A stretch of DNA of 64,000 bases, taken from positions 496,001 through 560,000 of the forward strand of contig NZ_CP017194.1 of NCBI RefSeq assembly GCF_006770265.1. The letters are read 5' to 3'. Source of the stretch: Lactococcus carnosus. GTDB taxonomy: Bacteria > Bacillota > Bacilli > Lactobacillales > Streptococcaceae. Below the pieces are notes generated by a model. It did no database searches and was not told where the DNA came from. It was given only the letters and a program-made list of their open reading frames with translations. Positions 1,440 to 32,670 of this stretch are shown here, one piece after another. Position 1 is the stretch's first letter, and each line of letters begins with the position of its first letter. Both the position numbers and the translations under genes were made by a program.

Positions 1440-2699
1440 ATGAAAGAACTCAATAAAAGACATTTTTTAAACTACTCGATTTTAATCCCCTATCTGATTC
1501 TATCTGTATTGGGTCTCATTATCGTCTTCTCAACAACAGTACCACATCAAATTGAATTAGGCTTACCACCTTATCAGCTATTTAGAAACCAGACCATCTT
1601 CTTTGTTTTTTCATTAGTGATGATTGCTATGATATATAAGATGAAGGTTGATAAACTCAGGTCACGTGGTTGGTTTGGTATCTTAATTCCCATCATGCTG
1701 GCCTTGCTATTTATCGCAAGGTTTCTAGCACCACCAATTAATGGCGCCCATGGTTGGATTCCCATTCCAGGGATTGGGACCATACAACCAGCTGAGTATT
1801 TGAAACTCGTTTCTGTCTGGTTCTTAGCGGCAACTTTTGCAGCAAAACAGAAGAAAATTAAGGACCAGGATATCGATGCCTTGTTCAATAGGAAACAATT
1901 TTTTATCAACTTTATCAGTGGATGGCGTCTTTGGATGGTCTTAATGGTGGGTGCGGTTGTCGTCATGCCAGATATGGGGAATGCACTCTTGATTTTGATT
2001 AGTGCAGCAATCGTTTTGGCAACCAGTGGTATTTCTTATCGTTGGACAACAGGTTTCTTGAAGATATTTGGTATCTTTTCACTCATCGCTTTAGTGATTT
2101 TGAAGATTACCGGCGGCAATATTATTCCTAGTATTTTTGGTTCGATTACCTATGTGAATAAACGCTTTATTGCTTTTGCAAATCCATTTCAGGACAGTAG
2201 TGATTCAGGTCACCAAATGATTAATGGCTATTATGCCATGTCAAATGGTGGTTGGTTTGGTCGAGGGTTAGGTAATTCTATCGAGAAAAAAGGATACTTA
2301 CCCGAAGCACACACTGACTTCGTATTTGCGATTGTGATGGAAGAATTAGGGTTGATTGGTGGTATGATTATCTTAGGTCTGATCTTCTTTCTCATCATGC
2401 GTATTTTTATGGTTGGTATTCGTGCTAAAGATCCGTTTAATAGCATGATGTCGATCGGTGTCGGCGGGATCTTTTTTGCCCAAGTACTGGTTAATATTGG
2501 CGGTATTGCGGGGTTGATCCCTTCTACAGGTGTTACCTTCCCATTTCTAAGTCAAGGAGGGAACTCACTCTTGATTTTATCCGTAGGTATTGGCTTTGTC
2601 CTTAATATTTCTGCTGATGAAAAACGGCGAGAGTTAGCAGAAATTACATCAAAATATGATCTATCTGAGTTATCAGATACCTCGCTTAGTAAGTCGTAG
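1440..2699 (+). CDS. ftsW: FtsW/RodA-family peptidoglycan glycosyltransferase
   Basis: This 419-residue polytopic membrane protein belongs to the SEDS family, which polymerises lipid II into glycan strands together with a class B penicillin-binding protein. Typical motifs are NGAHGWI (residues 101-107), QPAEYLKL (116-123) and PEAHTDF (288-294). About ten transmembrane segments can be seen. The lineage order ftsW then pyruvate carboxylase favours FtsW over RodA. The codon directly before ATG 1440 is TAA, so no earlier in-frame start exists. The only ribosome site, AAAGGA near 1403, lies some 30 bases away, and a small hairpin in between could bring it close. The C-terminal tail after residue 395 is charged and cytoplasmic. 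Confidence 0.9.
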   Translation: MKELNKRHFLNYSILIPYLILSVLGLIIVFSTTVPHQIELGLPPYQLFRNQTIFFVFSLVMIAMIYKMKVDKLRSRGWFGILIPIMLALLFIARFLAPPINGAHGWIPIPGIGTIQPAEYLKLVSVWFLAATFAAKQKKIKDQDIDALFNRKQFFINFISGWRLWMVLMVGAVVVMPDMGNALLILISAAIVLATSGISYRWTTGFLKIFGIFSLIALVILKITGGNIIPSIFGSITYVNKRFIAFANPFQDSSDSGHQMINGYYAMSNGGWFGRGLGNSIEKKGYLPEAHTDFVFAIVMEELGLIGGMIILGLIFFLIMRIFMVGIRAKDPFNSMMSIGVGGIFFAQVLVNIGGIAGLIPSTGVTFPFLSQGGNSLLILSVGIGFVLNISADEKRRELAEITSKYDLSELSDTSLSKS

Positions 2700-2788
2700 T
2701 AGACGTTATCAAGCAAAAAAATGAAGTATTAATTAGTATAGGTGACATCAAGGGTTAAGCATGTGACACTTGATTGCAGAAACAGTTT

Positions 2789-2821
2789 TAAAAGGAGCCA
2801 CTTTAGGCTATCTTTTATTTT
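2789..2821 (+). terminator. terminator between ftsW and pyc
   Basis: TAAAAG...AGCC pairs with GGCT..CTTTTA around the loop ACTTTA, followed by TTATTTTTG. The stem has a small internal bulge. It could also attenuate transcription entering pyc. Confidence 0.55.
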
Positions 2822-2845
2822 TGTAAAAATTGAAAGGTTTTATAA

Positions 2846-5800
2846 ATGAAAAAACTATTAGTTGCTAACCGTGGTGAAATCGCAATCCGTGTTTTCCGTG
2901 CCTGTAGTGAGTTGGGTATTTCAACCGTCGCAATTTATGCTAAGGAAGATGAGTATTCTGTTCACCGATTTAAAGCAGATGAAGCCTACATGGTCGGTGA
3001 AGGAAAAAAACCAATTGACGCTTATTTGGATAGTGATGATATCGTGCGTATTGCCTTAGAATCAGGTGCAGAAGCGATTCACCCAGGGTATGGCTTGCTA
3101 TCAGAAAATATTGACTTTGCTCGTAAAGTCGAAGCAGCAGGCTTGATTTTTGTCGGCCCAACCTTACACCATCTGGATATTTTTGGTGACAAAATCAAGG
3201 CTAAAGAAGCATCTGTTGCAGCTGGTGTTGGGTCAATTCCAGGTACTGAAGGGCCAGTTGACCTAGAAGGTGCTTTAGAGTTCGGTCGTACCTTTGGCTA
3301 CCCAGTCATGATCAAAGCTGCGCTTGGTGGTGGTGGCCGCGGTATGCGTGTGGCCCATAATGAAGCTGAAGCGCGTGATGGTTATGTACGTGCAGCTTCT
3401 GAAGCCAAGTCTGCTTTTGGCTCGGATGAAATTTATGTTGAAAAATACATTACAGATCCTAAACATATCGAAGTACAAATACTTGGTGACTCGCATGGTA
3501 ATGTTGTCCATCTTTATGAGCGTGACTGTTCTGTCCAACGCCGCAATCAAAAAGTGATTGAGGTTGCACCGAGTGTGGGGATGTCAGATGAATTGCGTAT
3601 GCGTATCTGTGATGCAGCAGTTCAACTCTGTAAGCACGTTGGCTATATTAATGCAGGGACAGTTGAGTTTCTAGTAAAAGATAATGAATTTTACTTTATT
3701 GAGGTTAATCCACGTGTTCAGGTAGAGCATACGATTACAGAAGCAGTTACTGGTATCGATATCGTTCAAGCACAAATCCTGATTTCTGAGGGTGCAAACC
3801 TGCATCAGGATATCAAGATTCCCTTGCAAGCGGATATGCCTTTATTAGGATCAGCGATCCAATGTCGGATTACAACAGAAGATCCAGAGAATAATTTCTT
3901 ACCTGATACTGGGATTATCGACACTTACCGCTCACCAGGTGGGTTTGGTGTCCGACTAGATGTCGGCAATGCCTATTCTGGTTATGAAGTAACGCCTTAC
4001 TTTGATAGTCTATTAGTTAAAGTTATTACACAAGCAACTGACTTTAGTGCTAGTATCTTAAAAATGGATCGATGCTTACGTGAGTTCCGAATTCGTGGCG
4101 TGAAAACAAATATTCCTTTCTTGAGAAATGTTTTGAATCATCCAGAATTTATTGCTGGTAATGCAAAAACGACCTTTATCGATAGTACGACTGAGCTTTA
4201 TAACTTCCCACGCCTACGTGACCGTGGTAATAAAACAATGAAATACGTTGCCAACATCACGGTAAATGGCTTCCCAGGCATCAGCAAGGTTTCTAAACCC
4301 TACTTTGATGAAACACGCTATCCAAAAGTTAAAAAAATAGAAACACTGACAACTAAAAATATCCTAGATAATCAAGGTGCTGATGCTGTTGTAGAGTATG
4401 TAAAATCTCGTAAGGAAGTCTTACTGACAGATACGACACTACGTGATGCCCATCAAAGTTTACTTGCGACACGTATGCGTTTGCAAGATATGAAAAAAGT
4501 CGCAAGCTCAATAGACCAAGGTTTACCTAACCTATTTTCATCAGAAATGTGGGGAGGCGCTACATTTGACGTCGCCTACCGTTTCTTAAATGAAAGTCCT
4601 TGGTATCGGCTACGTGAACTACGTAAGTTGATGCCAAATACCATGTTCCAGATGTTATTCCGCGGTTCTAATGCGGTCGGTTATCAAAATTATCCAGATA
4701 ACGTAATTGAAGAATTCATTAAAGTTGCAGCCCATGAAGGCATGGATGTCTTTCGTATCTTTGACTCATTAAACTGGTTACCACAGATGGAAAAATCTAT
4801 CCAAGCAGTCCGTGATACAGGTAAATTGGTTGAAGCAACGATGTGTTATACCGGTGATATTTTAGATAATGACCGCCAAAAATATAATATCAAGTACTAT
4901 AAAGATTTGGCTAAAGAGCTACAAGCAACTGGTGCTCATATCTTGGCAATTAAAGATATGGCAGGTATTCTTAAGCCACAAGCAGCCTATCGCTTGATAT
5001 CTGAATTAAAAGAGACGATTGATATTCCACTCCATCTCCATACACATGATACAGCTGGAAATGGTGTGATGATTTATTCTGCGGCTGTCGCTGCAGGAGT
5101 TGATATCATCGATGTTGCGACGTCTGCCCTATCATCAGGCACGAGTCAACCAAGTATGACATCAGTTTACTATGCCCTTAAAAATGGCGAACGCACACCA
5201 GAGTTAGACGTTGATAATGCAACGCAGATCAACCATTACTGGGAAGATGTCCGTAAGTTCTATACACCGTTTGAAAAAGGCCTCACAAGCCCGCAAACGG
5301 AAGTCTATAGCCATGAAATGCCTGGTGGGCAATATACCAACCTCCAGTCACAAGCAGCTGCTGTAGGCCTTGGTTTGCGCTTTGACGAGGTCAAGGTGAT
5401 GTATCATACAGTTAACATGATGTTTGGTGATATCATCAAAGTCACACCATCTTCTAAAGTTGTTGGTGATATGGCCTTGTTTATGGTCCAAAATGACCTA
5501 AGTGAAGCTGATATTTATGAAAAGGGAGAAACACTTAACTTCCCTGAATCAGTCATCAGCTTCTTTGCAGGTGACCTAGGTCAACCAGTAGGTGGCTTCC
5601 CAGAGAAATTGAAAAAGATTATTCTTAAGGATAAACCATTTTTCACAGATCGACCAGGTTTGCATGCCCCAGCTGTCAGTTTTGAGGCTGTCACTGTCGA
5701 GTTAACTGAAAAGTTAGGCTATACACCAGGTCGTCATGAAGTCTTGAGCTATATTCTATATCCACAAGTCTTCCTGGATTATCAAAAGATGCAAAACGAA

Positions 5801-6259
5801 TTTGGTAGTGTGACCTTACTTGATACACCGACATTCTTTAATGGCATGCGCGTTGGTGAGAAAATTTCAGTTGAGATTGAAAAAGGTAAGACTTTATTGA
5901 TTCATTTGGATAGTATTTCTGAGCCAGATAATGAAGGTAATAGAACACTCTTCTTTAACCTGAACGGACAACGACGGGAAGTGGTCATCAAAGACACCTC
6001 TGTTAAATCGATGACTGCAGTCAAAGAAAAAGCAGAGCCAAGTAATCGTCATCATATCGGGGCAACGATGCCAGGATCAGTTGTTACGATATTGGTTGAA
6101 GCTGATGAGAAAGTTGTTAAGGGACAACCGCTTATGGTGACAGAAGCCATGAAGATGGAAACAACGATTGAGTCGCCAGCTGATGGTGAGATTAAGAAAA
6201 TCTATGTCAAGGCATCGGAAGCGATCGCGACACAAGATTTATTAATCGAATTGAAATAA
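2846..6259 (+). CDS. pyc: pyruvate carboxylase
   Basis: A full-length 1137-residue biotin enzyme that carboxylates pyruvate to oxaloacetate with ATP and bicarbonate, supplying aspartate synthesis. In order it has a biotin carboxylase ATP-grasp domain (about 1-450, with the glycine-rich GGGGRGM loop), a carboxyltransferase TIM barrel starting at TDTTLRDAHQS (about 527), an allosteric linker, and a biotinyl domain whose AMKM motif carries the biotin lysine K1103 near the C-terminus. The start ATG follows AAAGG at a normal distance. It is a single-gene transcription unit flanked by terminators. Length and motifs match single-chain PYC of Gram-positive bacteria. Pyruvate carboxylases of this group can be inhibited by cyclic-di-AMP, but nothing here tests that. 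Confidence 0.97.
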   Translation: MKKLLVANRGEIAIRVFRACSELGISTVAIYAKEDEYSVHRFKADEAYMVGEGKKPIDAYLDSDDIVRIALESGAEAIHPGYGLLSENIDFARKVEAAGLIFVGPTLHHLDIFGDKIKAKEASVAAGVGSIPGTEGPVDLEGALEFGRTFGYPVMIKAALGGGGRGMRVAHNEAEARDGYVRAASEAKSAFGSDEIYVEKYITDPKHIEVQILGDSHGNVVHLYERDCSVQRRNQKVIEVAPSVGMSDELRMRICDAAVQLCKHVGYINAGTVEFLVKDNEFYFIEVNPRVQVEHTITEAVTGIDIVQAQILISEGANLHQDIKIPLQADMPLLGSAIQCRITTEDPENNFLPDTGIIDTYRSPGGFGVRLDVGNAYSGYEVTPYFDSLLVKVITQATDFSASILKMDRCLREFRIRGVKTNIPFLRNVLNHPEFIAGNAKTTFIDSTTELYNFPRLRDRGNKTMKYVANITVNGFPGISKVSKPYFDETRYPKVKKIETLTTKNILDNQGADAVVEYVKSRKEVLLTDTTLRDAHQSLLATRMRLQDMKKVASSIDQGLPNLFSSEMWGGATFDVAYRFLNESPWYRLRELRKLMPNTMFQMLFRGSNAVGYQNYPDNVIEEFIKVAAHEGMDVFRIFDSLNWLPQMEKSIQAVRDTGKLVEATMCYTGDILDNDRQKYNIKYYKDLAKELQATGAHILAIKDMAGILKPQAAYRLISELKETIDIPLHLHTHDTAGNGVMIYSAAVAAGVDIIDVATSALSSGTSQPSMTSVYYALKNGERTPELDVDNATQINHYWEDVRKFYTPFEKGLTSPQTEVYSHEMPGGQYTNLQSQAAAVGLGLRFDEVKVMYHTVNMMFGDIIKVTPSSKVVGDMALFMVQNDLSEADIYEKGETLNFPESVISFFAGDLGQPVGGFPEKLKKIILKDKPFFTDRPGLHAPAVSFEAVTVELTEKLGYTPGRHEVLSYILYPQVFLDYQKMQNEFGSVTLLDTPTFFNGMRVGEKISVEIEKGKTLLIHLDSISEPDNEGNRTLFFNLNGQRREVVIKDTSVKSMTAVKEKAEPSNRHHIGATMPGSVVTILVEADEKVVKGQPLMVTEAMKMETTIESPADGEIKKIYVKASEAIATQDLLIELK

Positions 6260-24824: not shown

Positions 24825-24862
24825 AAAAAACGGATAGCGGATTTATTGCTATCCGTTTTTTT
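24825..24862 (+). terminator. terminator of the PTS beta-glucoside operon
   Basis: ACGGATAGC and GCTATCCGT pair with flanking A and T runs. Confidence 0.85.
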
Positions 24863-24953
24863 GAGGTTATCAGGTATCAGATAGCGTGAGCAAGAGCACA
24901 TTTACGCTAGCTAACATCTGCGAGATTAAAAAATAACAAATTTTAGGTTATCC

Positions 24954-25009
24954 TTGACGCGCATATTATGATATTGTATAATAATATCATAAAGTAAGCG
25001 CTTACTTTA
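24954..25009 (+). promoter_or_regulatory. strong promoter with nested palindromic operators for peptide gene
   Basis: TTGACG (24954-24959), a 17-base spacer and TATAAT (24977-24982) is near-ideal. A 10-bp inverted repeat, TTATGATATT/AATATCATAA (24966-24975/24983-24992), encloses the -10. A second, perfect 20-base palindrome centred on AAGCGCTT (24990-25009) starts about at +2; it is cre-like with mismatches only at the outer positions. This is a tightly controlled promoter. Which regulators bind is unknown. Confidence 0.8.
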
Positions 25010-25030
25010 AAAATAAAAGGAGGATTCAAA

Positions 25031-25201
25031 ATGAAACAATTAACAGTTAATGAAACTCAAAAGATTGTAGGTGGGGTATCATGGGAATGTTTGGCGTGCC
25101 CGTTTAAGAGTGCTAATCATGTATTTACAGCTACTGCAAGTCAAAGAGCCTATGAGCATGAATCACGATATGGTCACTATGGTAAAACAAGAATAAGATA
25201 A
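25031..25201 (+). CDS. double-glycine-leader secreted peptide (bacteriocin- or pheromone-like)
   Basis: A 56-residue peptide with AAAGGAGG eight bases upstream. Residues 1-15 (MKQLTVNETQKIVGG) form a short leader ending in Gly-Gly, the cleavage mark for C39 peptidase exporters. The 41-residue core starts VSWEC and has only two cysteines, C20 and C23 (CLAC), with histidines at 30, 43 and 49, and is basic near its end. The CxxC plus spaced histidines suggests metal binding or a disulfide; neither is shown. An ABC pair and a C39-type fragment follow. I do not recognise the core as a named bacteriocin. Confidence 0.8.
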   Translation: MKQLTVNETQKIVGGVSWECLACPFKSANHVFTATASQRAYEHESRYGHYGKTRIR

Positions 25202-25252: not shown

Positions 25253-25264
25253 TGATTATTAGGA

Positions 25265-25300
25265 AACTGCTATTGCATGACTGTCAATATGCAGTTTTTT
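25265..25300 (+). terminator. attenuating terminator between peptide and ABC genes
   Basis: AACTGC..TATTG pairs with CAATA..GCAGTT with one bulged base, followed by TTTTAG. It would let the peptide be made in excess over the transporter. Confidence 0.7.
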
Positions 25301-25319
25301 AGTTAAGTATGGAGGAAAC

Positions 25320-26189
25320 TTGTTAGTATTAAACAATATTTATAAAAAATATCAGGATAAAGTCATTCTAGAAGATATCTGTTTAACTTTAAACAATGGT
25401 ATCTATGGCTTACTTGGTGCGAATGGAGCTGGCAAAACGACGCTGATGAAAATGATTTGTGGCGTGATCAAACCAAGCTCTGGTTATATCCACTATGATG
25501 GTGAAGCGATGGGAAGTGGTCAAAGTCAACTCATTGATTGTCTGGGCTATTTACCTCAAGATTTTAGCTACTACCCTGAGTTTACCGCCTATGAATTCAT
25601 CACCTATATGGCTACTTTAAAAGGAATGAGCAGAAGTGATTTTGAGAAGCAGGGCCACTCTCTTTTACAGATGGTGGGACTGGACACAGTAAAACATGCT
25701 AAAATAAAGTCCTTCTCTGGTGGGATGAAACAAAGATTAGGCATTGCCCAAGCGCTTTTAGGGGACCCTAAAGTTTTAATTCTGGATGAGCCAACCGTTG
25801 GTCTGGATCCCAAGGAAAGAATTCGCTTTCGTAATCTAATCAGTTCCTTGTCCAAAGATAAGATCATTATTCTATCAACGCATATTATTGGTGATATCGA
25901 TGCAGTGGCAGACGAGATACTTATTCTTAAAAAGGGCATCCTGCTTGAGCAGGCGACACCCCAATTATTATTAGAGAAAATAGACAACCAAGTTTGGGAA
26001 GTTGAAGTGGAGATAGACCTTGCTGATAAACTCAAAGCATCATACATTATTAGCAATCAAAAAGTTGTCAATAATCGACTGATGCTACGGATTGTATCAA
26101 GTGTTTCGCCTATTGAGGGTGCCCATCATGTGCAAGCTAATCTGGAAGACTTGTATCTTTATTATTTTCCAAATATAGGAGAAAGTTAA
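25320..26189 (+). CDS. ABC transporter ATP-binding protein of the peptide locus
   Basis: A 289-residue ATPase of the ABC-2/BcrA type. Walker A GANGAGKTT lies at about 37-45, the signature in FSGGMKQR, Walker B in VLILDEP, and the switch histidine in STHI. The C-terminal about 75 residues are a family-specific tail. The start is TTG 25320 with GGAGG four bases before it; no in-frame ATG lies nearby. It is directly followed by its permease, sharing TAATG. Such pairs commonly give self-protection against, or export of, antimicrobial peptides. Confidence 0.88.
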   Translation: MLVLNNIYKKYQDKVILEDICLTLNNGIYGLLGANGAGKTTLMKMICGVIKPSSGYIHYDGEAMGSGQSQLIDCLGYLPQDFSYYPEFTAYEFITYMATLKGMSRSDFEKQGHSLLQMVGLDTVKHAKIKSFSGGMKQRLGIAQALLGDPKVLILDEPTVGLDPKERIRFRNLISSLSKDKIIILSTHIIGDIDAVADEILILKKGILLEQATPQLLLEKIDNQVWEVEVEIDLADKLKASYIISNQKVVNNRLMLRIVSSVSPIEGAHHVQANLEDLYLYYFPNIGES

Positions 26190-27352
26190 TGTATATGTTA
26201 TATAAATTTGAGCTGAAAAAGATAGTTAAGACAAAATTATTTTTAGGTGTTTGCCTCGCTTTACTGGTAACCACTTTAGGGGCCATGTGGACTGTCTTCT
26301 ACATATCTCCTATGGGGATTGGTCCCAAGGAGATGTCGAAGCGATCGGTTGTCCAGTATAATCAGAAATTTGCTAGACAGTATGAAGGCGACTTAACTGA
26401 TAGTAAAATTAAGGAGGTTCTGAGTGATTATTTAGCTTTTCATAAGTCACGAAAACAAGACGAAAATAAATACCAAGAGGAGATACCAAATAATGTCTTT
26501 TCCTATCGGATAGCTGATGCAGTGCTAAATCCTAAAGATAATCTGCCCAATCAAGTAGATAAAAATCCAAATGTATCGATCGATGATATACCAGTAAAGC
26601 CGATCAGTAGTTTGGGGATCAACAAAGATATAAAACCTATCAAATTAACAAGTTATTACGGATGGTCTGATTTGTACAAGATGACAGAAGTTATATATAT
26701 CCCCATTGTGATGGCGATCATTGTGGCATGTTCGGGCATCTTTTCAAGCGAACGTGCCGCAAATATAGATCAACTCTTGTTAGCGACTAAGCATGGTCGT
26801 AAGCGATTAACGACCTCGAAAATCTGTGCAGTAGGACTTGTTTCGGTTGCTTTATTTCTTGTCACCAGTTTACTGATTTTGGGGTCATTCATTATATTTT
26901 ATGGTTTTGATGGCTGGAATGGCAGTATTCAGGCAAATTTTGAGCTAGCAACATTTACCTTTCCAATTGCACTTAGCCACTTACAAGTTTCTCTTGTCAT
27001 GCTAGGCATTCAACTCTTTAACGTCCTATTTATCAGTAGTCTAGGTATTTTGATCTCCAGTTTTACAAATTCACCTTTTATATCTATGATCATATCATTA
27101 GTTATATTTGTCATACCAAAAGGCTTAGATAAACTCTTTACTGTAGGGACGTTACCTAACAAGGTACAACAGTACTTACCAATTAATAATTTTAGTGTCG
27201 ATACCATCTTACAGAAGATGACTAATAACGAGGAAGTTTTGCGTAATAGTTTCACAGCAAATCTATTAATCATTGGTGTCATAGCATGTTTGGTTATGGT
27301 GGTGAGTCTAGTCGTCACGAGCATACATCAAAAAAAATATTATGCATCATGA
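26189..27352 (+). CDS. ABC-2-type permease of the peptide locus
   Basis: A 387-residue membrane protein. One helix at about 15-35 is followed by a large hydrophilic, likely extracellular loop (about 40-170) and then five helices (about 175-385). This layout, with a big loop between the first and second helix, is seen in ABC-2 permeases for peptide resistance. ATG 26189 overlaps the ATPase stop and follows AGGAG. With the ATPase it forms a complete transporter, inferred to act on the locus peptide. Confidence 0.85.
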   Translation: MYMLYKFELKKIVKTKLFLGVCLALLVTTLGAMWTVFYISPMGIGPKEMSKRSVVQYNQKFARQYEGDLTDSKIKEVLSDYLAFHKSRKQDENKYQEEIPNNVFSYRIADAVLNPKDNLPNQVDKNPNVSIDDIPVKPISSLGINKDIKPIKLTSYYGWSDLYKMTEVIYIPIVMAIIVACSGIFSSERAANIDQLLLATKHGRKRLTTSKICAVGLVSVALFLVTSLLILGSFIIFYGFDGWNGSIQANFELATFTFPIALSHLQVSLVMLGIQLFNVLFISSLGILISSFTNSPFISMIISLVIFVIPKGLDKLFTVGTLPNKVQQYLPINNFSVDTILQKMTNNEEVLRNSFTANLLIIGVIACLVMVVSLVVTSIHQKKYYAS

Positions 27353-27367
27353 GGTTAGGAGGTTACT

Positions 27368-27613
27368 TTGATCATTACAAGAGGTATTTTACAGCATGAT
27401 CAGTCTGACTGTGGTGCTGCCGCGCTAGCTAGTGTCTTTAATATGCATCATCTGTTAATACCTGTTACCCAGTTAAGAGAAACGATGCGAGTTGATAAAT
27501 CAGGAGCTAGTATTTACGCAATCATTAAGACAGCTGAAACGTATGGTATCAGAGGAGAAGGGTTAGTAGGGGATTTAGAGGAGCTAGCAGCTAGTATTGG
27601 CAGTAAGATGTAA
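27368..27613 (+). CDS. short C39-peptidase-like protein, lacking the catalytic His/Asp half
   Basis: An 81-residue protein with a strong AGGAGG site and TTG start. It begins ITRGILQHDQSDCGAAALAS, the Cys segment of C39 bacteriocin-processing peptidases (C15), and continues with the helix and GASIYAIIKTAETYG typical of the family. It stops before the His and Asp of the triad, and a terminator follows about 40 bases later. So it is either a truncated remnant of a processing exporter or a genuine short protein that binds leaders without cutting. No membrane or ATPase part is present. Confidence 0.7.
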   Translation: MIITRGILQHDQSDCGAAALASVFNMHHLLIPVTQLRETMRVDKSGASIYAIIKTAETYGIRGEGLVGDLEELAASIGSKM

Positions 27614-27653
27614 CAAATCAAACTAATGCTTGTTTAATCTTGTATAGGACAAA

Positions 27654-27674
27654 AGGCGCATTGCGTCTTTTTTT
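27654..27674 (+). terminator. terminator of the peptide/ABC locus
   Basis: AGGCGC pairs with GCGTCT (one G-T) around ATT, followed by T7. Confidence 0.75.
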
Positions 27675-28268
27675 GATTCATATGGACGTGGCGAAGTTGA
27701 TGAAAAAGCGATGTAGATTTAGCATATTCCAGTAAATAGTTTAGGTGTGGCATGTTACTTAGTTAATTTGGAACAATTTTTAGCTGCGGATAGTCCTATT
27801 GGTAATAGCGTAAAATAAAGGTTTGAGCGAGTAGTCAATGCTTTCGTACAAAAGATACAGGATGTACCATTCAGAATTTGATGCCTGCCTACCTAGAAGC
27901 AACAGGTCAATTAGTGGTTGATGAAACTCTGAACCTGAACCTGATCGCTTAAAAAGTGGCGTTAAGACTCATTTTTTTATTATCTTCAAAAAAATTCGAA
28001 AGTCCCCAAAAAAGCGAGTTTGGTGCTTACTGGTGATGAAGGTACTAGATTAAAATTGACTTTTGGAAATTACATCTGTAAACTAAAGATATACAGAAAA
28101 TGAATAACGAATGAGTCAAGTAAGAGATGTCGTGTGAAATAACTGAAACAGTAGCGCTAGGGGAAGCAGTCAAGTAGTGGAAACACGCTGTCACTTTCTA
28201 TGTTTCCTCTCCTCTTATCATGTTGTTTTATCAAATTTTTAGTCAGGTTCAAAATGCAAGGAGAGACC
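27675..28268. other. intergenic region with no intact gene
   Basis: About 590 bases without a supported gene. Short open stretches look coding-like but are broken by stops, for example one ending LEQFLAADSPIGNSVK near 27818 and one with MPAYLEATGQLVVDE near 27885. They could be remnants of a decayed gene between the peptide locus and the Mga-like regulator. I cannot name the family. Confidence 0.3.
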
Positions 28269-29723
28269 ATGTATCCAATGATGAAAGAAATAATCACTGA
28301 AAAAGATATTCGGAGGCAGATTTTATTAATTGAAAAGTTATTGAATCATAGCCAACTGACGGCTAAGGAATTGGCCGAATCTATTCATACAACTGAAAGA
28401 ACTGTTTTTTCAGATATACAATTAATCAGAAGTCAATTACCTGATGATTGGATGATTGAGTCTGACAGCTCAGGTTTCAAATTATTTCCAGCAAAAAATA
28501 GTGTGACAACGGAGATATGGGAAATTTTTTTGTCGCAATCAATTGGGATTCAAATTTTAAAAGCCTTATTTCTCAACCCCGAAGTATCTCGTCATCAGCT
28601 TGCACAATTGACCAGTGTTTCTGTTGAAACACTAAAAAGGCATATTAATCAGATTAATAGACGGATTAAAGCCTATCAAGTTAAAATTAAATTAACAAAA
28701 GGGGTTTACAAGCTAACTGGAAAAGAAAGTACGATTCGTATTTTTTTTCATCGGTTACTTTTACCTTATACATACAGTAACTATTTTTTTAAGGATTATG
28801 CAGTTCACGAGATCCACTATTATCAATTTCTGAAAAACATACGCCAATCCGATGTGAAGATTGAGACGGAACATATTTTTGGCATGAACTGGTTTTTTAT
28901 TAATACCATCAGGATTAAGGCAAATTGCCGAATTAATAACTTTTCCTATCAAAAAGAAGATCCACTTTTTTCGCTTTATCACTTAATGCTAGTTGAGCTT
29001 TATCAAAAAGAAGGGATTTACTTAACGGATGATGAAGCATTTTTCAGTTTTTTCTGCTTTTTAGAAAGTTGGAATTATAATAATACGTATGGAAACATTT
29101 TAGATGATACGATTCATACCCAATACCCGACACTTTTAAAAGCAGCTTCTGATTTTGTTGCGCGTTTTGTATCAAGTGGGACACTACCTGAACTCAGTCG
29201 CTCAAAATTAAGTGATAATTTATTTTTGCTATTGTTGAAGTATGTGGAATCCCCAAAGCTTTCCAAACAATTTCAACTTGAATATCATGAGCTAATCAAT
29301 TTAAGAGCAGATCATTATCAATTACTTCAAAAATTTGGTCCAGAGTTGATTCAACAGTTGAATCCCTTAGCAAAAATAGACGATATAGGCTATCTTATCC
29401 ATCTCATATCATTACTTGTGCAACAAGCAATTTTTCAAACCCATCCTATTATGATGACTGCCTACTTTATTTTTCAAGGAGAACCTGCATGGAAAGACTT
29501 CCTTAGACAAGAAATTAGTGATGCTCTTGGTAATCGTGTTAAGGTAATTGGCATTGAACCGTTTGATTTAAAAGATGTCCAATATAATACGCAAGATATT
29601 ATAATCTCAAATTTACTTTTGGAAACTCAGCCTGTACCGATTCATTATATCTCAATGCTTCCAACAAAAAATGAACTCAATACATTGATTGAGTCCACAA
29701 GATCGCAATATTTATTAATCTAA
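28269..29723 (+). CDS. Mga-like helix-turn-helix regulator
   Basis: A 484-residue protein. Two N-terminal helix-turn-helix segments (about 20-75, LTAKELAESIHTTERTVFSD; and about 90-150, VSRHQLAQLTSVSVETLKRH) match the Mga/RofA family. The middle holds PRD-like helices (about 170-380) and the end an EIIB-like domain (about 390-484). Such proteins sense PTS phosphorylation and activate surface or sugar genes. AAGGAGAG precedes ATG 28269; the frame upstream of it has no ribosome site. The target genes are not evident here. Confidence 0.82.
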   Translation: MYPMMKEIITEKDIRRQILLIEKLLNHSQLTAKELAESIHTTERTVFSDIQLIRSQLPDDWMIESDSSGFKLFPAKNSVTTEIWEIFLSQSIGIQILKALFLNPEVSRHQLAQLTSVSVETLKRHINQINRRIKAYQVKIKLTKGVYKLTGKESTIRIFFHRLLLPYTYSNYFFKDYAVHEIHYYQFLKNIRQSDVKIETEHIFGMNWFFINTIRIKANCRINNFSYQKEDPLFSLYHLMLVELYQKEGIYLTDDEAFFSFFCFLESWNYNNTYGNILDDTIHTQYPTLLKAASDFVARFVSSGTLPELSRSKLSDNLFLLLLKYVESPKLSKQFQLEYHELINLRADHYQLLQKFGPELIQQLNPLAKIDDIGYLIHLISLLVQQAIFQTHPIMMTAYFIFQGEPAWKDFLRQEISDALGNRVKVIGIEPFDLKDVQYNTQDIIISNLLLETQPVPIHYISMLPTKNELNTLIESTRSQYLLI

Positions 29724-29798
29724 TAGGGCAATGATACTAAGGTAACTTGTTACGCTTTGTCAACAGTCTTTTATTTTCAAAGTTGCCTCACTATCCTA

Positions 29799-32333
29799 TT
29801 ATGTCTTACTAACAGTTATCTTTTTTGTTATCATTTTCTCAACTTCAACTATGATGAAAATAATTAAAGCATTTAAAAGCATGGCAGAAATTTGTGTCAG
29901 TGTTAATTGTGCCGTACCAATTAGCGTATGTGCTAATGGTGAAAATTGTAGTCCCAATTGCAGTAGCGTTAGGATACCGAGTGAGATAAATAATGCACGA
30001 TTTTGAAACATCGCTTTGTTAATGGACGGGTTAAGTAACTCACGACAGTTGATCATATATACAGCTTGCGCAAAAACGATACTCTGCAGTAGCACTGTTT
30101 GCTGAACCAGGACACCATCATATTGGGTAGATAGGAAATAAGACGGTATCATAATCAATAAGGAAACATAGAAAATTCTGAAGAGACTATATGCCGACAG
30201 GATACCTTCATTTGTAGGTCTCGGTGGTCGACTCATTGTATCGGCACTAGCCTTTTCAAACCCTAAAGCATAAGACAGAGCAATCGTTGTCACCATATTC
30301 ACCCATAAAATTTGTACAGGGCTCAATGGTAAGGGGCGGTTCATCAATAAAGCGAAGATAACGACAAAACCTTGCGCTAATGCGGTCGGAATAAAGAAGT
30401 TAATCGTTTTTTTCAAGTTATCAAAAATACGTCTTCCTTCTTTAACCGCTTTTGAAATCGTTTGGAAGTTATCATCTGCTAAGACCATATCAGCTGCTTG
30501 TTTAGAGACTTCACTCCCTTTAATTCCCATGGCGATACCAATATCAGCTTTCTTCAAGGCAGGTGCATCATTGACACCATCTCCAGTCATACCAACAATT
30601 TCACCATTACTTTGCAAGGCGGTGACAATTCTTAGTTTATGTTCTGGTGTTGTTCTAGCAAAGACATCCACATGTTTAACTGCCTCTCTCAATGCGTCGT
30701 CTGACATCAGATCAATTGCTAAACCTTCTAATACTTCTGCTGTGTGTGTTAATCCAATTTGTTCACCAATTGCTTTTGCAGTTTCTTTATGGTCACCTGT
30801 GATCATTTTAACGCTAATACCTGCTTGTTGACAGGCTTCAACTGCTTGAATGGCACTCTCTTTTGGTGGGTCAATGATGCCTGCAAGTCCTGCAAATGTT
30901 AAATCGGTTAGCATATCGTGCCTTATGTCGGCTTGTGGGTCGACTTCTTTATAGGCAAATCCTAAGACACGTTGTCCTTTTTGAGCCAGCTCAACCGCCT
31001 TTTGTTGCCAGTCAGATAGATCACGTTTATCTAAATTGGCAAGTGACATCAAGACTTCTGGTGCCCCTTTAACATAGATGATATCTTGTTGACCATAAGG
31101 ATGTACGGTTGCCATATATTTATAACTTGAGTTAAAGGGTATCTTTGCTTTAACTTTCTTAAGGGTCAACCCTGCTTTTTCAACGTAGTGAAGGAGTGCG
31201 AGTTCAGTTGGATTACCCTGAAGGTCATCAATCGTTTGCTTGTCATCTAGTTTTAATTCTTGACAGTTATTCATAATGTCAAATAGATGTCCGGAATGCT
31301 TCTCAGCTTCTATTACATCTACTACGGTCATTTCATTTTTAGTCAGGGTACCTGTTTTATCGGAACAAATGACAGTCATGGAACCCAGAGTTTCAACAGA
31401 AGGCATACTTTTGATAATAGCCTGTTCCTCTGCCATTTCCTTGACACCTGCTGATAGGATCATTGTTAATACAGCAGGTAAGCCTTCAGGCACCATTGCG
31501 ACAATTAAGGCAATCATGGCAGAAAATAGTAAATTGAAGTCCATACCATATTTAAAAGTTGAGAAAAAAATCAGGAAAACAATTAATACCATAATCCCTT
31601 TGAATAACTGTTGATTTAAGTCATTCATTTTTTTGACGAGAGGCGTTGTTTGCTGCTGAATTGATTGTAAGGCTTGGTTTATTTTACCGATTTCTGTATC
31701 GCTACCTGTTGCAACCACAATGCCTAAGGCCGAGCCAGACTGAACTAGCGTTCCCGAGAATGCCATGTTAGTCTGGTCACCAATGGCACTTTCTGCTTCG
31801 ATAAGGTGAGCATATTTTTCAACTGGTTCGGATTCGCCTGTTAAAATTGATTCTTCTATAATCAAATCATGTACATCAATTAATCTTAGATCGGCAGGTA
31901 CAACATCGCCAGCATTGAGTGAAACAATATCACCCATGACAACAGTTTCATTAGGAATTGTTGCTTTGACACCATCGGATAGGACGACCGCTTCTTGTCC
32001 CATCATTTGCTTCAAGCCGTCCAGAGAATCTTGGGCCTTTCTTTCTTGCCAATAGCCGACTAATCCGTTGATAATCACCACTAAAAAGATAATTGCACTC
32101 TCAACATAGTCACCTGTGATCATTTTCAAAATAGAAGCAAAAAGTAAGACAATCATGAGTAAGTCTGTAAAATGTTTTAAAAACTTCTGCCAAGGTTTTA
32201 ATGCTTGTTTTTCTTCTATTTTATTAAAGCCATTGGATTCGAGGCGTTGCTGTCTCTCTATGTCCTGAATCCCTTTGTCTGTAGTCTGAAGTTTACTTAG
32301 TATTGCTTCTTTTGTTAACTGATACCATTTCAT
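29799..32333 (-). CDS. P-type Ca2+-transporting ATPase
   Basis: An 844-residue P2-type cation pump. It has the N-terminal cation-ATPase domain, the TGES actuator motif, the ion-site helix AMVPEGLPA, phosphorylated D325 in DKTGTLT, the nucleotide domain, the TGDGVNDAP hinge and a C-terminal group of helices. PEGLP fits Ca2+ or related divalent cation pumps rather than copper types, which carry CPC. AAAGGA lies eight bases before the ATG. It is monocistronic on the minus strand, divergent from tex. Confidence 0.9.
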   Translation of the reverse strand: MKWYQLTKEAILSKLQTTDKGIQDIERQQRLESNGFNKIEEKQALKPWQKFLKHFTDLLMIVLLFASILKMITGDYVESAIIFLVVIINGLVGYWQERKAQDSLDGLKQMMGQEAVVLSDGVKATIPNETVVMGDIVSLNAGDVVPADLRLIDVHDLIIEESILTGESEPVEKYAHLIEAESAIGDQTNMAFSGTLVQSGSALGIVVATGSDTEIGKINQALQSIQQQTTPLVKKMNDLNQQLFKGIMVLIVFLIFFSTFKYGMDFNLLFSAMIALIVAMVPEGLPAVLTMILSAGVKEMAEEQAIIKSMPSVETLGSMTVICSDKTGTLTKNEMTVVDVIEAEKHSGHLFDIMNNCQELKLDDKQTIDDLQGNPTELALLHYVEKAGLTLKKVKAKIPFNSSYKYMATVHPYGQQDIIYVKGAPEVLMSLANLDKRDLSDWQQKAVELAQKGQRVLGFAYKEVDPQADIRHDMLTDLTFAGLAGIIDPPKESAIQAVEACQQAGISVKMITGDHKETAKAIGEQIGLTHTAEVLEGLAIDLMSDDALREAVKHVDVFARTTPEHKLRIVTALQSNGEIVGMTGDGVNDAPALKKADIGIAMGIKGSEVSKQAADMVLADDNFQTISKAVKEGRRIFDNLKKTINFFIPTALAQGFVVIFALLMNRPLPLSPVQILWVNMVTTIALSYALGFEKASADTMSRPPRPTNEGILSAYSLFRIFYVSLLIMIPSYFLSTQYDGVLVQQTVLLQSIVFAQAVYMINCRELLNPSINKAMFQNRALFISLGILTLLQLGLQFSPLAHTLIGTAQLTLTQISAMLLNALIIFIIVEVEKMITKKITVSKT

Positions 32334-32670
32334 TGTTTAAATCCTTTCTTTTTCTCCTGGGGGCCTGCTGTTACTGAAGATTTAAAGCTTAACTATAGTA
32401 TACCGTCATTTTTTATGTTAAAAGGGTCACAAATTTCAGGCTAGACTGAAAAAGCTGATAAGGAAGTTATCTGCCATAGCAGACCGATTTTGTTAGGAAA
32501 AGTATGAAAGATGATGCAATTGAAAAAATGAACAACTTGAGTATTTAACACTAACCAAAAAAAATGGTTAGCATAGTACAGTGAGTTGAAACATCTGTAA
32601 AGCCTTATTTCAAGGCTATCTAGCGTGGTATTCCGTGTTGTAGTGATGATAATTATGGTATAATAAGAGA
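32334..32670. promoter_or_regulatory. divergent intergenic region of Ca2+-ATPase and tex
   Basis: On the minus side a TTAACA-18-TATAGT promoter lies near 32393-32422. On the plus side a CTAACCA/TGGTTAG hairpin lies at 32551-32571. The tex -10 is at the right end. A 14-codon open frame at 32504-32548 has an AGGA site but no other support. Confidence 0.4.
32656..32664 (+). promoter_or_regulatory. extended -10 placing +1 on the tex ATG
   Basis: TGG-TATAAT ends six bases before ATG 32671. No ribosome site is present; a leaderless mRNA is predicted. Confidence 0.6.

Follow-up and report, generated by a model that had tools for sequence, protein, structure and literature searches.

What do a CxxC pair and three spaced histidines do in a small peptide that carries an export leader? 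The question is raised by a gene of Lactococcus carnosus at positions 25031-25201 on the forward strand of the window, as the whole 64,000-nucleotide stretch of DNA analysed is called here. A sequence-only reading had described a peptide containing C20, C23, H30, H43 and H49, and translation of the open reading frame bears it out, with only two cysteines. The 56-residue precursor, MKQLTVNETQKIVGG|VSWECLACPFKSANHVFTATASQRAYEHESRYGHYGKTRIR, has a 15-residue double-glycine leader, MKQLTVNETQKIVGG (25031..25075, + strand), and a 41-residue core that holds all five residues and is followed by the stop codon (25076..25201, + strand). The leader ends in GG, the GG is kept in the homologues, and the TIGR01847 score of 13.9 bits lies just below the cut-off of 15.7. 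Upstream there is a promoter (24954..24982, + strand) with a -35 box TTGACG and a -10 box TATAAT separated by 17 nt, which matches the consensus at 11 of 12 positions and is conserved in L. piscium, and a ribosome site AAGGAGG lies 7 nt upstream of the ATG. Homologues are present in Lactococcus and Streptococcus, and comparison with L. piscium gives a pS of 0.11 against a pN of 0.04, from only 9 differences. The promoter, the ribosome site, the homologues and the excess of synonymous over non-synonymous change show that the gene is real. Just 3' of the -10 box is a perfect 20-bp palindrome, TAAAGTAAGCGCTTACTTTA (24990..25009, no strand), which is identical in L. piscium and differs by one mismatch from the lactococcal cre consensus in a cre scan; cre-like boxes near several promoters suggest sugar-dependent expression. 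The reading favoured here, with a probability of about 0.5, is that the gene encodes an exported, unmodified bacteriocin-type peptide whose core folds around a structural zinc held by C20, C23, H43 and H49.

The genes behind the peptide gene give the first indication of its role. An ABC transporter ATPase, probably for immunity (25320..26189, + strand; PF00005), and its partner, an ABC-2 type permease (26189..27352, + strand; PF12679 and PF12730), lie directly 3' of the peptide gene, and from this position the pair is probably a dedicated immunity system for the producer. The arrangement is that of the lantibiotic-protection transporters of the LanFEG and BcrAB type, and TIGR03740, the lantibiotic-protection ATPase model, is among the best matches of the ATPase, under the cut-off. 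Unlike those transporters, however, the pair falls under all curated equivalog and subfamily cut-offs, and the immunity role is read from position. Clostridial relatives of the ATPase also have a permease, with no such peptide just upstream; one of them follows a response regulator. These contexts fit a resistance pump. Between the peptide and ATPase genes is a hairpin (25258..25303, + strand; -17 kcal/mol, z -4.0), a probable attenuator or terminator. Streptococcus saliviloxodontae has a hairpin of different sequence at the equivalent place (z -4.35), and the two would fit an attenuator through which the peptide is made at higher levels than the products of the downstream genes.

The cassette ends in a truncated gene for a C39-peptidase exporter, of which only the first 81 codons remain (27368..27613, + strand; PF03412 and a match to the L. 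piscium gene). L. piscium DSM 6634 (L001) has this cassette too, at about 96% identity, with an intact exporter of 709 residues. The match between the two breaks off at 27608; from 27630 another 46 bases match, and these correspond to L. piscium sequence downstream of its exporter gene. The window has therefore lost about 2 kb of that gene by deletion. The stretch that follows the truncated gene and its surroundings (27368-27675), from 27676 to 32652, is absent from the L. piscium locus. The L. piscium locus has a peculiarity of its own at 1540-5985, where a stretch matching window 24829-25015, promoter included, is present twice around a 4-kb insert, which carries a gene for an 872-residue secreted protein with a cysteine-peptidase-like stretch. 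With local export broken in this strain, the peptide could leave the cell only through a C39 exporter encoded at another place in the genome. The deletion raises the possibility, short of even odds, that the system is a decaying remnant in this strain and that no exported peptide is made; stop codons in the peptide genes of S. thoraltensis and of three further genomes (G058, G403 and G067) point the same way. Against such decay, the peptide, ATPase, permease, promoter and ribosome site are all intact in the window, and a second, intact C39 exporter of 739 residues is encoded in the same genome (G000:C1:1212068-1214077) beside a GG-type peptide. That second locus, at about 1.21 Mb, comprises the exporter, a 145-residue GG-type protein and possibly a shortened accessory protein.

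Whether the cysteines and histidines form a site can be judged from 25 homologous cores. The most informative columns are W18, C20, H30, H43 and C23, followed by the W29 position and H49, and W18, C20, S27, H30 and H43 are invariant in 25 of 25. A CxxC followed by H-x3-6-H at finger-like spacing arises in 0.4% of shuffled cores, and conservation is a stronger argument than this rarity for the set being real. The second cysteine is present in 19 cores and H49 in 22, and every loss of H49 falls among the losses of C23 and brings a new cysteine two residues further on. This is the case in L033, L034 and L035, and also in L074, which is of the same type and has lost H43 as well. Four other relatives, L043, L026, L036 and L037, have a single cysteine and keep H49, so that the family can do without the CxxC set, and these members count against zinc. 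The distant relative L039 has a CCHC-like set, with CxxC, H43 and a cysteine near the H49 position, and has glutamine in place of H30. Since it has lost H30 alone, H30 is probably functional and not a ligand. Although the pattern comes from few, partly related sequences, the simplest reading is that the metal site consists of C20, C23, H43 and H49 and that H30 is kept for another reason. The metal-binding knuckle proposed from sequence alone thus survives for those four residues, co-conserved across genera, and gives way for H30, while nothing in the analysis supports the redox activity raised as an alternative. Free variation of the flagged residues among homologues would have spoken against a knuckle; the losses of C23 (6 of 25) and H49 (3 of 25) go part of the way, but the variation is patterned, and the residues are among the best-conserved columns.

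The predicted fold agrees with such a site. The AlphaFold2 model of the window core (mean pLDDT 90) has a strand at residues 2-5, a helix at 18-32 and a second strand at 36-39, in core numbering, with the knuckle after the first strand and H43 within the helix, and it resembles a small zinc finger. As in C2H2 fingers, a CxxC (C20-x2-C23) and a histidine pair (H43-x5-H49) are conserved and the order is strand, knuckle, helix. Unlike them, the two pairs are separated by 19 residues against about 12 in the classical finger, and neither the zf-C2H2 profile nor any other zinc-finger profile matches above threshold, which counts against zinc. The nearest structural matches, in BFVD, are unnamed mycobacteriophage mini-proteins and a halophage CxxC protein (TM 0.8, rmsd 1.1 Å). 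With the actinobacteriophage CxxC mini-proteins the likeness is structural and kinship is not supported by sequence; in contrast to them and to C2H2 fingers, the window peptide is exported and has an extra C-terminal strand. Foldseek found no significant match in the PDB, which does not establish a new fold; a second look with VIA-align gave Z scores of at most 5.1, and a sequence search of the PDB returned only rubredoxin-like CxxCGY snippets. For DUF7848 (PF25232) the best relative reaches 23.5 bits against a cut-off of 24.5 and the window core does not match; a search for its members in control genomes found no match and so carries no weight.

A second model raises another way of holding the core together. 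The L034 core is predicted by AlphaFold2 with a strand at 2-6, a helix at 18-31 and a strand at 37-41 (pLDDT 97), and one of its two cysteines is on the first strand and the other on the last, a placement that suits a disulfide. In the streptococcal relatives of the L033-L035 type a disulfide staple probably replaces the metal, because C23 and H49 have been lost jointly, a new C-terminal cysteine has appeared and the predicted fold is the same; the two models together suggest that one fold may carry either a metal or a disulfide staple. If a disulfide is the likely state there, the window peptide might also be a disulfide peptide: once exported, it would have its CxxC oxidised to a disulfide between C20 and C23, or cysteines of separate molecules would pair, and activity, not metal, would be the reason why the histidines are conserved. 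The tendency of exported cysteines toward oxidation and the existence of single-cysteine relatives (L043 and L036) are in favour of this. However, CxxC disulfides are usually reactive and not structural, and both the joint loss of C23 and H49 and the retention in L039 of CxxC, H43 and a fourth cysteine suit metal coordination, leaving the disulfide peptide rather unlikely.

By profile search the core was reported from 21 of 295 Streptococcaceae genomes (about 7%) and from 13 of 395 genomes of the order, counts that include one or two weak false matches, and was essentially absent from the class and phylum samples outside the order. No relative was found in plasmid searches, and the core is not covered by any Pfam or NCBIfam model. 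Several candidates were rejected: a chance RYGHYGK match within a 219-residue protein of the Flavobacteriales (L004), L073 and the first reading of L040 as unconvincing members, and two records named Listeria phage (OR846889.1 and OR848932.1) as cases of phage carriage. The latter look like bacterial chromosome fragments, and they are not evidence of carriage because the core protein is the same as that of a bacterial member of this order (L065) and a cold-shock-type gene adjoins it. The family uses two types of export signal, GG leaders and Sec-type signal peptides. Members with GG leaders mostly adjoin C39 exporters and/or ATPase-permease pairs (the window, L001, L003, L059-L064 and L066), and an intact C39 exporter is nearby in L001, L003, L056, L059, L060, L061, L064 and L066; this arrangement points to a bacteriocin that has its own immunity function. 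Among Sec-type members there is no consistent immunity partner, which counts against the bacteriocin reading. A copy of the core without a clear start codon in L067 (2216-5234) lies directly behind a lactococcin-972-type operon, whose products are a secreted protein of 137 residues, a bacteriocin-associated membrane protein and an ATPase that scores over the TIGR03608 cut-off; in S. saliviloxodontae (L003) a circular bacteriocin gene of the uberolysin family at 601-831 is about 5 kb from the peptide gene; and class IIc-type peptides adjoin two streptococcal loci (L061 and L062). These neighbours place the family among antimicrobial genes. In L055 (7017-10246) a single-cysteine relative is found beside BlaI-like and BlaR1-like genes and a divergent 409-residue membrane protein, suggesting regulation by wall stress.

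With the GG-leader class II bacteriocins of the Blp/IIc type (PF10439) the peptide shares its leader, its small unmodified core, the adjoining C39 exporter in relatives and the probable immunity genes. Unlike them, the window core matches no class II profile and is predicted to be a compact strand-helix-strand mini-protein with a conserved Cys2His2-type set. Pfam found no PF10439 match for the window peptide or five relatives, and the peptide has neither a YGNGV-type motif nor a CxxxxC in its N-terminal half, as pediocin-like class IIa peptides would. In the open-licence literature, subscription papers being outside the search, neither the family nor any member as an antimicrobial was found described, and full texts held no zinc-binding bacteriocin and no core fragments. 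The peptide is best described as bacteriocin-type, of a family not found described in that literature. A zincophore-like role, with the secreted peptide depriving competitors of zinc or supplying it to the producer, could draw on the conserved Cys/His set and on His-rich stretches before the core in some Sec-type relatives, such as THDHDHDDADHKD in one of two tandem copies in L051 (8825-9685), but it is improbable: a scan for AdcR and Zur boxes gave nothing convincing in front of any member, and instead of zinc uptake genes the surroundings contain peptide exporters and ATPase-permease pairs. Least probable of all is a pheromone, for although the peptide is small with a GG leader and one relative (L063) lies near a quorum-sensing-type sensor and regulator, linear pheromones do not resemble a folded core of 41 residues that carries a conserved metal-type site, and the cassettes of the window, L. 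piscium and S. saliviloxodontae contain neither a sensor kinase nor a regulator.

The zinc-held bacteriocin-type peptide is a proposal built on the gene, its conservation, the predicted fold and the neighbourhood, from which we infer the zinc, the killing, the target and the immunity. A C39-peptidase ABC exporter would recognise the precursor, cut after GG15 and release the 41-residue mini-protein. Outside the cell the core would fold as strand, knuckle, helix and strand round one structural Zn2+ bound by C20, C23, H43 and H49, with the metal as its staple, a role that a disulfide plays in other small bacteriocins. W18, S27 and H30 would be kept on this scaffold for function, probably for contact with the target; the peptide would attack the envelope of related bacteria, and the downstream ATPase-permease pair would protect the producer.

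Extended to the family, a more tentative view is that these are bacteriocins whose fold, and thus killing, depends on zinc outside the cell, and that lineages have traded the metal for a disulfide and switched the core between the C39 and Sec routes. On the tree of cores, which is poorly resolved, parsimony gives five swaps between GG and Sec export, and one is also compatible. What normally holds an unmodified bacteriocin together is a disulfide or the packing of helices in the membrane. If this family-wide view is true, the activity of the peptide would depend on free zinc, and the family would offer a small natural scaffold on which metal and disulfide staples can be compared directly. A metal site that can be exchanged with a disulfide on one scaffold would make the family a further class of antimicrobial peptides, one that depends on metal.
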